64,000 nt of DNA from Candidatus Bathyarchaeota archaeon A05DMB-3 (lineage in GTDB: Archaea > Thermoproteota > Bathyarchaeia > Bathyarchaeales > Bathycorpusculaceae): positions 62,001 through 126,000 of the forward strand of contig JABFQN010000002.1 of the NCBI GenBank assembly GCA_019685555.1, read 5' to 3'. Both the position numbers and the translations under genes were made by a program. Positions 31,339-58,778 of this stretch are shown one piece after another (within the stretch, counting starts at the first letter, position 1; each line of letters begins with the position of its first letter). The notes beneath the pieces were generated by a model. That model did not search any database. It had not been told where the DNA came from and was given only the letters and a program-made list of their open reading frames with translations.

Positions 31339-33984
31339 ATGTTAAGTGTATCTTATGGCTTTAGACGCGGTTTAAACATGCAAGGAATTGTACTTTCAGC
31401 GATTCTGGCGATATCAATTTTCGTGGCAGTTGCGCCAGCAGCCTTTAACTCCATGAATGGGCTAACGCCCAACGCTGTTCAAAAAATAACAAAGGACGTG
31501 GTCGAAGCAATGCAAACCGCAGATGCTGCCGAACAGGTAAACGTTATTGTTCAAACAACAAATAATGCCGAAGTTGCAAAGGCAATCGAGGAGCTAGGCG
31601 GGCAAGTTTCAATAACATATGAAAGCGTTGAAGCGTTGGCGGCTTCTATACCTGCGCGTAATCTTTTGAGACTCGCCTCGAACAGTCGCGTGGGACGGAT
31701 ATACAAGGATACCATTAGGGAGTTGTGCTACAGCGGTGCGATAACCGAGAATCTAAAATACACTGTTCCACGTGATCCTGTTACGGGTGAACCTGTTCTT
31801 GCTGATGAGCTTGAAGGAGTAGAAGTTGAGCCCATCGCAATAGAGGATATCGCTTCTGTTGAACCTGGGATATACACAAACACCGAGTTGACTGGTGCCA
31901 GCGCTGTTTGGGACGAAACCGCTGGCGCGGGCAGCGTGGTTGTTATTATTGACACTGGAGTTTGGGCTGCTTCCCCTTTGCTTGTCGGAAATGTGATTGG
32001 CGGAATTGACATAAGCCCAGACGTTGGAACACCATATGAAGGATGGGATGCCACAACAAACCACTATCACGGAACCGCATGCGCCCACCTACTTGCAGCC
32101 CACGCTTTACTAAGATTTGCAGCTGGGCATCCATGGGGGGAGGCAATCTTTAACTACGATCCTGTTGGGACCTGGAGAGATGCAGCTGGACGCGTTAATG
32201 TTTATTGCTTTGGAATCGCTCCAGCGGCTTCCATATACGCCATAAAAGTGTTCCCCCACACTGGGGCTGGAGTGCCCTCATCAATTATAATGCAAGCAAT
32301 AGACATAGCAATACAAATGAAAGTAAGTGGAACATTGGACGTAGACGTTATTAGCATGAGCCTCGGCGGTGGAATAGGCGCGGACGGTGAAGACCCAGAG
32401 GACCTGTTGGTTGATGCCGCAACAGAGGCTGGAATAACCGTTGTTGCGGCAGCTGGAAACGAAGGACCAGCCCTATTAAGAGTAGCGTCACCCGGTAGTG
32501 CAAAAACCGCGATAACAGTTGGCGCAGCGATGGACCCAATTCATGAGTGGGTATTCGGTGACATATACTTCTGGGCTTACTATGGGCAACCAGCTGGAAA
32601 TGGCCTCGGTGATGACCTTTGGTATCCGCATGATTACATGGCTATAGTTGACTTCAGCAGCAGAGGACCATCCGCAGACGGAAGACTAAAGCCTGAAGTT
32701 GTTGCCACTGGTTCATGGTGCTTCCTTGGGCTATTCCCAGACGGCCGCATAAGGTTGGGTGGAGGCACATCCTTCTCAACACCCCAAGTTGCCGGAGTTG
32801 CCGCATTACTCAATTCCTACATAGAAGCGAATGAGTTACCCTATGGACCAAAAGAGATAAAGCAAGCCACAATAGACGGTGCAGTGCCAATTCCAGGATT
32901 CACAGCAGAGGAGCAAGGCGCGGGCTATGTTAACGCAGTAAACGCCCTAAACGTCATAAAGTCTGGCACCTTTGGAACCCTTCCAACCACATGGCCCCAC
33001 CACATCGGCGACATATGGTTCCCACCAATAGAAGTAACATGCCTATGCAACGGAAAGGCAACGTTTACCAATATAGTGCTAGAGCCAGCCAAATACCAGT
33101 ACTTCGCCTTCTGGGTCTCAAGCGAAGTTGACGCAATCAAAATCACACTATCCGACGTGGTCCTAGCCGACCCAGAACAACAAAACCCACTCTGGGGCGA
33201 CGCAGGAGTAATATATCTAAGCACAGCTGAAAGAGGCGGCGCAGACAGCTACTACTTCTATGGCTTATACTTCTTTGGAGACGGCGAAATCCTGCTAACA
33301 TCCGATGTTCCACTTGAACCCGGTGTAGTGAGGCTTGCACTTGCAGGTGACTTCTCAAGCTACAATCCCGTGACCGTAGGAAAACTAACAGTTGAAGTGA
33401 CAGAAGTATGGGTTGGAAGCATCGACAAAAAAGTTATCCTATACAACAGCGGTGTCCCAACACAAGCCTTAGTGGAAGTCTACCCTGGAAAAATTGAAGG
33501 ATACTACGGAACAGTTAAACAAGGAGAAACAGACGTATACACATTCAAGATAAAGGACACTAACGGCTTCGCCTTTGTATTCCTATACTGGTACCGCGAC
33601 TGGACAAAGTGGGCCACAAGCGACCTAGACCTAATAATAATCAACCCAGACGGCTCACTAAACGTGGACGGCGCAACCCTAGCCTCACCGGAAGTAGCAA
33701 CGCTGTCAGCCGGACCCGGAGAATACACAATACTCGTAGACGGATACCAAGTATACTTTGACAAAACAGAATACTATTACTTGGAAATAGTGTACCTTGC
33801 CGACACAACACCGCTATGGTCTTCGCCGTTAATAAACCTGAAATGCATGGCATTTGTCCAATCACCAAAATACGGAGTAGCCGTTGTCTGGCTATACAAC
33901 GCCGACTTTGACGCATGGTACATCGGCGGGTTTGCAAACCTCGCCAAAATGCCAAAAGGATGCAAAGGCGCCTTCGCAATTTAA
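31339..33984 (+). CDS. Secreted subtilisin-like serine protease (S8)
   Basis: 881-aa exported protease. Signal segment at about residues 14-36 (GIVLSAILAISIFVAVAPAA), then an I9-like propeptide (QVNVIVQTTNN...LAASIPARNLLRLA). The triad is Asp205 (IIDTG), His244 (HYHGTACAH) and Ser478 (GGTSFSTPQVAG), with oxyanion Asn374 (AAGNEGP). The C-terminal ~340 residues are beta-rich and contain a PPC-like module (GTVKQGETDVYTFKIKDTNG...DLDLIIINPDG). No C-terminal membrane anchor is seen. Likely degrades external proteins, suiting a protein-fermenting lifestyle. Confidence 0.92.
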   Translation: MLSVSYGFRRGLNMQGIVLSAILAISIFVAVAPAAFNSMNGLTPNAVQKITKDVVEAMQTADAAEQVNVIVQTTNNAEVAKAIEELGGQVSITYESVEALAASIPARNLLRLASNSRVGRIYKDTIRELCYSGAITENLKYTVPRDPVTGEPVLADELEGVEVEPIAIEDIASVEPGIYTNTELTGASAVWDETAGAGSVVVIIDTGVWAASPLLVGNVIGGIDISPDVGTPYEGWDATTNHYHGTACAHLLAAHALLRFAAGHPWGEAIFNYDPVGTWRDAAGRVNVYCFGIAPAASIYAIKVFPHTGAGVPSSIIMQAIDIAIQMKVSGTLDVDVISMSLGGGIGADGEDPEDLLVDAATEAGITVVAAAGNEGPALLRVASPGSAKTAITVGAAMDPIHEWVFGDIYFWAYYGQPAGNGLGDDLWYPHDYMAIVDFSSRGPSADGRLKPEVVATGSWCFLGLFPDGRIRLGGGTSFSTPQVAGVAALLNSYIEANELPYGPKEIKQATIDGAVPIPGFTAEEQGAGYVNAVNALNVIKSGTFGTLPTTWPHHIGDIWFPPIEVTCLCNGKATFTNIVLEPAKYQYFAFWVSSEVDAIKITLSDVVLADPEQQNPLWGDAGVIYLSTAERGGADSYYFYGLYFFGDGEILLTSDVPLEPGVVRLALAGDFSSYNPVTVGKLTVEVTEVWVGSIDKKVILYNSGVPTQALVEVYPGKIEGYYGTVKQGETDVYTFKIKDTNGFAFVFLYWYRDWTKWATSDLDLIIINPDGSLNVDGATLASPEVATLSAGPGEYTILVDGYQVYFDKTEYYYLEIVYLADTTPLWSSPLINLKCMAFVQSPKYGVAVVWLYNADFDAWYIGGFANLAKMPKGCKGAFAI

Positions 33985-54861: not shown

Positions 54862-56160
54862 ATGAACAGTCAAATAACGCTTCCCGTGAATGAGCTCCCC
54901 AAAAACTGGTACAACATTTTGCCAGATTTACCTGAACCACTTCCCCCTCCCAAAGAGCCTGAAACTGGTCCCTCGCGGATGGAGTTTTTGTCCAGAACTA
55001 TGATTAAGGAATGTTTAAGGCAAGAAATGGCAAACGAACGTTGGATTCCAATTCCAGAGGAAATTCGCGAGCTTTATGTTCACATGGGTAGACCTAGACC
55101 TCTTTATCGCGCAAAAAGACTTGAAAGACGTTTGGGGCTTAAGAGGGTTAGGCTCTACTATAAGCGGGAGGATTTGTCTCCAACGGGTTCTCATAAAACT
55201 AACACAGCGGTCGCCCAAGCATATTATGCCATGAAAGAGGGGAAAACAACCTTAACAACCGAGACTGGTGCCGGACAGTGGGGAACAGCACTTGCTTATG
55301 CAGCTAGACTTTTAGACCTAGAATGTGTGATTTTTTGGGTTAAATCCGTTTACGACTGGAAAATTGACAGAAGAACTTTGATGAAGCTTTTAGGAGCTAA
55401 GGTTTATGCTTCACCAAGCCAACAAACGGAAATCGGCAGAGAGGTTTTCTCAAAGAACCCTGAACATCCGGGTTCTTTGGGGATTGCAATTTCAGAAGGT
55501 TTAGAATATGCAGAGACACACAGGGATTCAGTGTACTGTCTAGGGTCAGTTTTGAACCATGTGCTTATGCATCAATCGATAATTGGACTGGAAACCATAA
55601 AACAGTTCGAAATTGTAGATGAAAAACCCGACTTGATAGTGGGCTGTCTTGGAGGTGGCTCAAATTTTGGCGGCATAGCCTTGCCCTTCATCGGCGAAGT
55701 CTTACAGGGTAAACGAGAATGTGAATTTCTGGCGGCTCAGTCGCTTGCAGCGCCAAACCTTGTTAAAGGCGAATACCGTTACGACTTTTGCGATGTGGCT
55801 GAACACACTCCGCTCTTAAAAATTTACACTTTGGGTCATAAGATTGAGATGCCGCCGATAAAGGCTGACGGTTTAAGGTATCATGCAGCTGCTCCGATAA
55901 TAAGCCTTTTAAGACATCACAACATTGTGAAAGCAGTAGCCTATCCAACCGACGAGAGGGCGATTTTCGAAGCTGCAAGGCTTTTCCTTCAAAGCGAGGG
56001 ATGGCTGCCCGCCCCAGAATCTAGTTATGCCATTCGTGCTGGGGTGGATGAAGCCTTAAAAGCTGAAAAGGTTGGTGTTGAAAAAGTGATATGTATGAAT
56101 ATTAGTGGGCATGGTTTCCTAGACATTGCAGCCTATAAGGAAAAGTTAGGAATAAACTAA
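54862..56160 (+). CDS. trpB: Tryptophan synthase beta-like protein (TrpB2 type)
   Basis: PLP enzyme condensing indole with serine. The PLP lysine lies in SPTGSHKTNTAVAQAYYA; the phosphate loop is GCLGGGSNFGG; the C-terminus has SGHGFLD. The long N-terminus (WYNILPDLPEPLPPP...) and about 432 aa length are marks of the TrpB2 group, which is often not paired with TrpA. No other trp gene is nearby, so it probably salvages indole or works with a remote TrpA. RBS AAGGTGAAAG precedes the ATG. Confidence 0.93.
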   Translation: MNSQITLPVNELPKNWYNILPDLPEPLPPPKEPETGPSRMEFLSRTMIKECLRQEMANERWIPIPEEIRELYVHMGRPRPLYRAKRLERRLGLKRVRLYYKREDLSPTGSHKTNTAVAQAYYAMKEGKTTLTTETGAGQWGTALAYAARLLDLECVIFWVKSVYDWKIDRRTLMKLLGAKVYASPSQQTEIGREVFSKNPEHPGSLGIAISEGLEYAETHRDSVYCLGSVLNHVLMHQSIIGLETIKQFEIVDEKPDLIVGCLGGGSNFGGIALPFIGEVLQGKRECEFLAAQSLAAPNLVKGEYRYDFCDVAEHTPLLKIYTLGHKIEMPPIKADGLRYHAAAPIISLLRHHNIVKAVAYPTDERAIFEAARLFLQSEGWLPAPESSYAIRAGVDEALKAEKVGVEKVICMNISGHGFLDIAAYKEKLGIN

Positions 56161-56167
56161 TAGTTGT

Positions 56168-56873
56168 TTAAACTTTGTGTCCATAACATCCAGTTAAAGG
56201 GACAAAGGCGACACCGCCGAGGTTTTCCTGCCTAATTTTTCCATCAACTTCTTTTGTCACTTTTATTAGGCTTTGGAAGAAGTGGATGTTTCCGATGGGG
56301 ATAAGCATGATTCCGCTATGTTTTAACTGTTCAATTAAAGGTATTGGTATATCTGGGGCTGCGGCTGTCACAAGAATCCTATCATAAGGCGCTTTTTCCG
56401 AATATCCTAGGGAACCGTCGGCACAGATTATTGTTACACGGTCTCCGTATCCTGCCCTCATAATGTTTCTTCTAGCAAAATCGGCTAAACCTTCAATTAT
56501 CTCTACTGTGTAGACGTGTCCCCACTCGCTTCTTGGGGCACTGCTTGGAGCCACTATCTCAGCTATTGTGGCAGCGTGCCATCCTGAACCCGCGCCTACC
56601 TCGAGTACTTTATGGCCGGCTTCCAATTGGAGGGCTTCATTCATTATAGCTACCATGTTTCGCCTAGCCCAGCAGTAAAGCCGAGCTATGTGGCGCTGAA
56701 ACTGTTTGCCCAAAACCAATTGGAAGAGGCGTGTCCGCAGCACTGTATGATTGCATGTTTTCTGGCAGAAACTTTACCCGCGGCACAGCACGCATTGCTT
56801 TGATTACTTTTGTGGAGCGGAGAATTCCCTCTTTTATTAGGTTATCAACTAGTCTTTCCCAGTCTTTCTCCAA
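56168..56873 (-). CDS. pcm: Protein-L-isoaspartate O-methyltransferase, reading frame interrupted by a 31-nt intron
   Basis: Repairs isoaspartyl residues using SAM. The 5' part (TTG start) reads [30 protein letters not shown] then [16 protein letters not shown]; the 3' part, in another frame, reads [34 protein letters not shown], the SAM site. In the family these two join as SAPHMVAIM with nothing between. Exactly 31 nt must be removed, giving exons 56690-56873 and 56168-56658 and a 224-aa protein of normal length. Those 31 nt form a bulge-helix-bulge with the flanks. The gene follows glmS on the same strand and converges with trpB. If it is not spliced, the gene is a frameshifted pseudogene. 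Confidence 0.88.
56659..56689 (-). other. Bulge-helix-bulge intron in the pcm coding sequence
   Basis: Reverse-strand RNA: CGCC (56695-56692) pairs with GGCG (56664-56661) as a 4-bp central helix. The 5' bulge is ACA and the 3' bulge AAA, each 3 nt. The inner helix UAGCUCGGC/GCUGGGCUA has 9 pairs closed by loop UUUACU. Cutting each bulge after its second base releases 31 nt and joins CCAC to ACAUG, coding Pro-His-Met in frame. The outer helix is weak (one G-C pair). Confidence 0.85.
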
Positions 56874-56948
56874 CCTAAACGCACCAAGTTAAATAATTGT
56901 GGAATAAGCATTTAACACATTTGCATTTCAAAACTGAAGATGTGTTAT

Positions 56949-58778
56949 CTATTTTACAGTTACAGATTTTGCTAGGTTTCTCGGTTTATCTGGGTCATAT
57001 CCCTTTTCCACAGCCATATAATATGCCAGAAGCTGCAGCGGAACAGCAAACGGTATTGGAGACAAAACATCCGGGACCCCTTTCGGCACTTCCACATAAT
57101 CATCGGCAAGCTTCTTAACGTCTTCGTCGTCTTCTTCTATGATTGCTATTATGGAGGCTCCTCTAGCCTTCATTTCCATAATGTTTCCCACAACTGTCTT
57201 GTGGGTTTCATCTTTGGGGCATATGAAAACCACTGGAAAGCCCTGCTCAACAAGGCTTATTGGACCGTGTTTGCTTTCCCCAGCTGGGAAGGCTATGGAT
57301 GGAACGTAGGCTATTTCCATAAGTTTAAGTCTGCCTTCGTAGGCTGTGGCTGTGCTTATCCCCCGCCCCAAAAAGAAGAAAACTTCAGCGTCCTTGTATT
57401 TTTTCGCTATGCCTTTAACTTTATCTTCTTGTGTCGCAATCACTGTTTCAACAATATCTGGCAGCTTCTTTAACTTTGCATCTATAAAATCCATTTCATC
57501 CTGTGAAATTTTACCCCTTTTCTTTGCTAGTCTGAGGGCGAGTTGGGCGAGAACTGAAAGCTGGGATGTGAAAGTCTTTGTTGCGGCGACGCCGATTTCT
57601 GGTCCTGACTGTTGGCTTATGTATACTCTTGCAACTCTGGTTAAGGTGGAGCCTATAACGTTTGTTAATCCAAGTACTGTTGCTGCCCTTTGACGGGCGG
57701 TGTTCACTGCTGCAAGTGTGTCTGCTGTTTCGCCGGATTGGCTTACAGCTAAAATAGTGCTGTCGACGTTTACCGATTTTCCATGTTGTTCGATGAATTC
57801 CGAGGCTATCACGGGGTATGTGGCTAGATAGGCGAGTTTTGAGAACATGTAGGATGCTGCAAGACAAGCATGATAGGATGTTCCGCAAGCCACGAGGAAG
57901 ACTTCGCGAGCACGGTCAAGAAAAGTTGCCATCAAATCTAAATAGTGCTCTTGAAGTCTCAACGTGTTTCTTAAGCATATAGGCTGTTCGTGAATTTCTT
58001 TTAACATGAAATGTGGATAGCCTTGCTTAACAGCCATTTCAGGCGTCCAGTCGACGATTTTTGGTTCTCGTGTGATGAGGCTTGAATCTGCGATTTTTCT
58101 GATTTCGAAGCCTTCCATGGATAGGGTTACAAGTTCTCCATCTTCCATAATGACCGCTTTATTGGTTAGGGGTAGGAAAGCTGGAATGTCCGAGGCGCAG
58201 TACAACGCGTTTTCGCCTAATCCTATAACGAGGGGGCTCTCGTGTCTGGCGCACACTATTTTGTTAGGGTCTTTTGGAGAAATCACTGCTATGGCGTAAG
58301 AGCCCTCCAGTTTCCGAACGGTTTCAAGAACTGCATCTGCGAGACTTAGAAACGGATTGCCTTTTAAGGCTTCTTCAATTAGATGAGCAATGACTTCCGT
58401 ATCTGTTTTGGATACAAAAATGTGTCCTTTATTTTCTAATTCAAGCTTCAACTCGGCGAAATTCTCTATAATCCCATTGTGAACTACAGCTATCTGTCCG
58501 CTACAGTCAACATGCGGATGTGCATTAACCATCAAGGGTGCTCCATGGGTAGCCCATCTGGTGTGGCCGACGCCTATGCTTCCAGGCAAGTCATCAAGAT
58601 TGTGGATTTTATGAACTTCGTCTATTTTTCCCCCGTCCTTTTTAATGTAGAGTTTCCCATCGTGGATTGTTGCTTCGCCGACCGAGTCGTATCCCCTATA
58701 TTCAAGTCTTTTTAGGGCTTGATGTATTAGCGGCGCAGCACTTCCTTCCTTCAGAATGCAACCGAATATCCCGCACAT
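56949..58778 (-). CDS. glmS: Glutamine-fructose-6-phosphate aminotransferase
   Basis: Makes glucosamine-6-phosphate for glycan precursors. The N-terminal nucleophile is Cys2 (MCGIFGCILKEG); the glutaminase domain includes GVGHTRWATHG and AVVHNGIIENFAEL. Two SIS domains follow, with SQSGETADTLAAV and GRGISTATAYEGRLKLMEIAY, and the C-terminal PRNLAKSVTVK end is complete. 609 aa, full size. A long AT-rich region upstream holds TATA-like elements. Confidence 0.95.
   Translation of the reverse strand: MCGIFGCILKEGSAAPLIHQALKRLEYRGYDSVGEATIHDGKLYIKKDGGKIDEVHKIHNLDDLPGSIGVGHTRWATHGAPLMVNAHPHVDCSGQIAVVHNGIIENFAELKLELENKGHIFVSKTDTEVIAHLIEEALKGNPFLSLADAVLETVRKLEGSYAIAVISPKDPNKIVCARHESPLVIGLGENALYCASDIPAFLPLTNKAVIMEDGELVTLSMEGFEIRKIADSSLITREPKIVDWTPEMAVKQGYPHFMLKEIHEQPICLRNTLRLQEHYLDLMATFLDRAREVFLVACGTSYHACLAASYMFSKLAYLATYPVIASEFIEQHGKSVNVDSTILAVSQSGETADTLAAVNTARQRAATVLGLTNVIGSTLTRVARVYISQQSGPEIGVAATKTFTSQLSVLAQLALRLAKKRGKISQDEMDFIDAKLKKLPDIVETVIATQEDKVKGIAKKYKDAEVFFFLGRGISTATAYEGRLKLMEIAYVPSIAFPAGESKHGPISLVEQGFPVVFICPKDETHKTVVGNIMEMKARGASIIAIIEEDDEDVKKLADDYVEVPKGVPDVLSPIPFAVPLQLLAYYMAVEKGYDPDKPRNLAKSVTVK

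Follow-up and report, generated by a model that had tools for sequence, protein, structure and literature searches.

The pcm locus in the window (the whole stretch of archaeal DNA that was analysed, 64,000 nucleotides) raises the question of how a complete enzyme can be produced from a gene whose reading frame is broken. The gene lies on the minus strand, with its TTG start at 56873 and its stop codon at 56168. It appears there as two overlapping open reading frames (56664-56873 and 56168-56743), with the break directly after Ser-Ala-Pro. Its product is protein-L-isoaspartate O-methyltransferase (PIMT), which makes pcm a protein-repair gene. The minus-strand sequence across the junction is GCG CCA C/A TAGCTCGGC TTTACT GCTGGGCTA GGCG AA/A C ATG GTA GCT ATA ATG, where the slashes delimit a segment of exactly 31 nt (56659-56689, minus strand) that brings an in-frame TAG when it is left in place. 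The upstream part of the gene (56690-56873, ending TCA GCG CCA C) and the downstream part (56168-56658, beginning AC ATG GTA and running to the stop) are both open. Scored separately against the PCMT family (Pfam PF01135) they reach 55.4 bits, for the N-terminal part of the domain, and 149.3 bits; only after excision of the 31 nt is the domain continuous, at 215.9 bits over residues 6-218. The restored peptide TVSAPHMVAIM is the same as in the solved PIMT structure 1jg1, and the interruption is placed in the most conserved part of the coding sequence. A search of the source genome with the spliced protein gave strong matches to the two exon pieces only, hence no intact second pcm is present.

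The 31-nt segment and its borders can be drawn as a bulge-helix-bulge (BHB) motif, the substrate of archaeal tRNA-splicing endonucleases. The central helix is formed by CGCC on the exon side (56692-56695, within the codons GCG CCA) and GGCG on the intron side (56661-56664). It is flanked on opposite strands by two 3-nt bulges, ACA (56689-56691) and AAA (56658-56660), and is followed by an inner helix of 9 bp, two of them G-U pairs, closed by a 6-nt loop (56665-56688); all these elements are on the minus strand. The cuts are predicted between 56690 and 56689 and between 56659 and 56658, so that each bulge is cut after its second residue; this joins CCA C to AC ATG and gives Pro-His-Met as in 1jg1. 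The preliminary description had claimed the frame break between SAPH and MVAIM with a 31-nt excess, the same helices, bulges and loop, and the return to frame upon canonical cutting; direct reading of the sequence bears out each of these points, and 1jg1 supports the junction. The probability of 13 pairs in this fixed register is about 5e-6 at the given composition, and the local fold of the region has z = -3.3. Rfam, including group I and group II introns, gave no match up to E = 1 across 56100-57000, and the core of a group I or II ribozyme is far larger than 31 nt.

The outer exonic helix of the canonical hBHBh' form is reduced at pcm to a single G-C pair with no covariation beyond it in the aligned relatives, which makes the motif a relaxed BHB. 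Heteromeric endonucleases (EndA) accept such motifs, which are usual in the cbf5 pre-mRNA [PMC2738675]; mRNA introns are thus not defined by the presence of an outer helix. Without constraints this one sequence folds 1.9 kcal/mol better through a GUUUC/GAAAC pairing that would supply such a helix, and this fold was rejected as the true structure on the grounds that the pairing shows no covariation in relatives. The BHB fold lies at most 2 kcal/mol from the minimum in 64 of the 67 intron-bearing loci described below.

The source genome encodes the enzymes that splicing of this kind would need. Two EndA genes (PF01974) are present, one with the catalytic His (L032, nearest PDB chains 2cv8 and 3p1z) and one without it (L033), together with RtcB (PF01139). 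A pair of one catalytic and one His-less subunit is typical of (alpha-beta)2 enzymes, which also act on relaxed motifs [PMC2738675]; subunit assembly and substrate range are here predicted from homology. We hold with high confidence that the pcm mRNA carries a 31-nt BHB intron of which the fate would be as follows: pcm would be transcribed with the intron in the pre-mRNA, a heteromeric tRNA-splicing endonuclease would cut each bulge after its second residue, RtcB would ligate the exons, and full PIMT would be translated from the spliced mRNA only. Cleavage, ligation and translation are steps that we infer from the sequence and the gene complement. A further role of the intron, such as gating of PIMT synthesis, is possible and putative.

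The spliced protein was used to search 100 relatives, and their DNA was fetched and the inserts delimited. Most of them have pcm split at exactly the same codon and the others have it intact. The delimited inserts come from 67 loci in 66 genomes of the window's order; they are 28-46 nt long, most often 31, and their lengths cover all three classes modulo 3. Excision opens the frame in all 67 (50 codons upstream and 155 downstream), and left unspliced every one of them runs into a stop within 17 codons. The His codon is restored in every intron-bearing relative, and the 3' bulge reads A-N-A in 67/67. In both exons the differences between relatives fall mostly on third codon positions (divergence per codon position 0.28/0.18/0.60 and 0.17/0.08/0.54). 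The comparison of relatives and a search for endonuclease genes of the heterotetrameric type had been proposed in the preliminary description as checks on the intron, with gene decay or a faulty assembly among the findings that would overturn it; the insert proved to be present or absent at one codon and variable in length, the two EndA genes and RtcB were found, and close relatives show open spliced frames and no decay.

Covariation was analysed in an alignment of 53 distinct pcm introns. The positions assigned to the BHB are paired in 93.7% of cells compared with 79.0% after shuffling, and the covariation score is 0.501 compared with 0.201, with none of 500 shuffles as high, a significance that is overstated since the aligned introns are related. 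The register control and the variety of pair types are independent of kinship: sliding the register by one destroys the signal, and the first inner pair, always paired, is found as UA, CG, GC and AU. Double changes occur in 8 of the 11 BHB pairs, and all seven inner pairs counted have changed on both sides. The central helix is paired in every intron-bearing genome (100% of the alignment) and the inner helix in 90%, with covariation. The intron-side strand GGCG is invariant apart from GGTG in 4/67, where it is accompanied on the exon side by GCA or by a G-U pair. The combination of GCA with GGTG, a compensatory change from G-C to A-U, is found in two genomes of the order (L028, L077) and again in a whole clade of another class (L190-L192, L194). 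The alanine codon that supplies the exon strand is GCG in 65 of 67 genes with the intron and in 12 of 21 without it (Fisher p = 2e-5, kinship ignored); the two remaining intron-bearing genomes, both with GGTG, have GCA.

The same genome offers an internal comparison in cbf5 (L215, G000:C13, about 32550-33266, minus strand), in which the sequence GGGA CUCU AG/A GGCUUAAAAGCGCC AGAG AA/A UCCC forms, at the codon for the catalytic Asp, a complete BHB whose outer helix has 4 bp. This predicted intron is 21 nt long and contains an in-frame TAA, its excision restores Leu-Asp-Pro, and its position is the one known experimentally from crenarchaeal cbf5 [PMC2738675]. The 31-nt intron does not belong with it, its gene being pcm. 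Introns in cbf5 could be delimited in many Bathyarchaeia relatives (18-36 nt, all with four central pairs), and as predicted from these sequences the range of the cbf5 intron extends beyond the crenarchaeal orders of its description. The cbf5 gene of one relative (L266 103-2466, minus strand, G021:C11) is broken at the Asp codon and has in addition a large in-frame insertion resembling an intein (CVPENTE, LAGLIDADG-like blocks, HNF, SNC).

In a blind scan for frame-restoring BHBs over 464 kb (32%) of the source genome, the highest-ranking short candidate with coding-like flanks was pcm (35.6), followed by cbf5 (30.0); the third (25.6) was unconvincing. Other candidates, e.g. L220:17693, L225:8141 and L216:14813, were rejected, since we judged them to be starts of genes, gene overlaps or a probable single-base frameshift. 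An endonuclease III-like ORF at L216 ~14813 (minus strand; G000:C28, ~36813) has an apparent single-base deletion, GTTTAGAA for GTTTTAGAA, and we judged its break to be a sequencing error or a true frameshift, not a BHB intron.

Other explanations of the pcm break were weighed against splicing. The ribosome might skip the hairpin by translational bypassing or frameshifting, the insert staying in the mRNA, and bypass systems do also show a hairpin between in-phase halves and a stop early in the insert. Matching take-off and landing triplets were, however, present in none of the 67 loci in the two registers tested, a bypass hairpin needs neither the helix between exon and intron nor the two kept 3-nt bulges, and cbf5 of the same genome has the same architecture at a position for which spliced cDNA is reported in crenarchaea [PMC2738675]; we regard bypassing as very improbable. 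Equally improbable in our view is a split gene, in which the second of two polypeptides would start at the ATG that follows the insert and assemble with the first. An ATG does stand directly 3' of the insert in the intron-bearing genes, and in a few of them GGTGA resembles a ribosome-binding site, but this Met is an ordinary conserved Met of PIMT, found also in intronless relatives and in 1jg1, the motif is GGCGA and not GGTGA in most loci, with GGTG tied to the exon-side GCA or G-U, and the conserved pairing of exon with intron would be left unexplained. An artefact of sequencing or assembly, or a pseudogene undergoing decay, has the smallest probability of all: the assemblies are derived from metagenomes and at least one likely single-base frameshift occurs elsewhere in the sampled genome (the endonuclease III-like ORF), but a frame-restoring insert shared at one position by 66 genomes of the order and by other classes, exons diverging mainly at third codon positions and the lack of an intact second pcm exclude both.

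The splicing of pcm proposed here has its closest counterpart in the cbf5 pre-mRNA of Desulfurococcales and Sulfolobales, with introns of 16-44 nt for which spliced cDNA has been reported [PMC2738675]. Both are short BHB introns in a coding gene with the cut placed between the second and third bulge residues, and they share the relaxed motif, the heteromeric endonuclease and lineage-specific loss [PMC2738675]; pcm differs in the gene, in the lineage (Bathyarchaeia and other classes) and in being known here from sequence. Apart from a Haloferax leader, cbf5 is described as the sole case of a BHB intron in an mRNA of archaea [PMC7714728]. The Haloferax mRNA is likewise a substrate of the archaeal splicing endonuclease, which acts on it at BHB sites, but these lie in the leader, outside the coding sequence, and no codon is restored [PMC7714728]. 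Archaeal tRNA and rRNA introns have the same motif and presumably the same enzymes, whereas at pcm coding exons contribute codon-constrained sequence to the central helix. Eukaryotic HAC1/XBP1 mRNAs are, as proposed for pcm, spliced by an endonuclease and a tRNA-type ligase with no spliceosome; their cuts are made by IRE1, not EndA, and are regulated by stress.

The preliminary description knew of no pcm intron of this sort, and in openly available full texts, to which the literature search was confined, we found no paper that brings together the BHB motif, archaea and isoaspartyl methyltransferase; priority is therefore provisional. We class the insert as a predicted archaeal pre-mRNA BHB intron in a new gene and lineage, and as far as we have found, cbf5 would be the only earlier case of a conserved intron spliced out of a protein-coding gene in archaea.

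A covariance model built from the pcm introns was run over 398 genomes of the phylum. It recovers the window intron with E of 4e-16, this sequence being itself among those used for building, and in the source genome it finds pcm only (next match at E ~0.85), so a mobile or repeated intron with a second copy there was rejected. Among the 398 genomes there were 45 matches, of which 43 were taken as pcm introns, a count that divergent introns escaping the model may affect. Matches in G291 and G083:C15, where there is no pcm, and in G006, where pcm is intronless, were discarded as fortuitous or as matching exon sequence only. Of the 398 genomes, 263 have a pcm-like match at E<=1e-12, which makes the intron a minority state in the phylum and a common one in the window's order. 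The intron is also found elsewhere in the class, in family f16, and in families f23, f24 and f33, which belong to other classes. Two soil Bathyarchaeota, L186 (BA_4) and L188 (BA_3), have pcm introns of 20 nt with a short inner helix, near the 16 nt of the shortest reported cbf5 introns. Those intron-bearing relatives that have names are Candidatus Bathyarchaeota; among them are M17C-01 and the Bathyarchaeum tardum genome M17C-73-01, and the B. tardum intron (L157/L158) is 30 nt long. Cultivation of B. tardum has been described [PMC10477458], and since this organism carries the pcm intron the proposed splicing is directly testable.

A protein tree of 111 rows requires 10 changes of state, with intronless groups nested within intron-bearing ones; it is a quick tree with many weak branches, and the starred branches alone force only 3 changes. 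The pattern fits an old gain of the intron followed by repeated exact loss, and horizontal transfer between classes is possible. As a tentative proposal, in which we place less than even confidence, the introns of pcm and cbf5 might both predate the split of several Thermoproteota classes and have persisted since then at strongly conserved codons, with clean loss on many occasions; splicing of coding genes by the tRNA machinery would then be ancient and still obligatory in much of the phylum, possibly with more genes beyond the 32% scanned.

A second such gene across dozens of uncultured genomes of several classes would mean that splicing of archaeal coding genes is no mere curiosity of crenarchaea, and gene callers likely list pcm and cbf5 of Bathyarchaeia as broken ORFs. 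The comparative set, with introns of 20-46 nt and clean losses, could help to establish how the tRNA endonuclease picks its targets among mRNAs and how, with no spliceosome, introns can arise and be lost with precision. As a separate observation, most genomes of genus g12 of family f1 (G011, G037, G047, G054, G058 and others) gave no clear pcm match in our searches, and the gene may have been lost in this genus.
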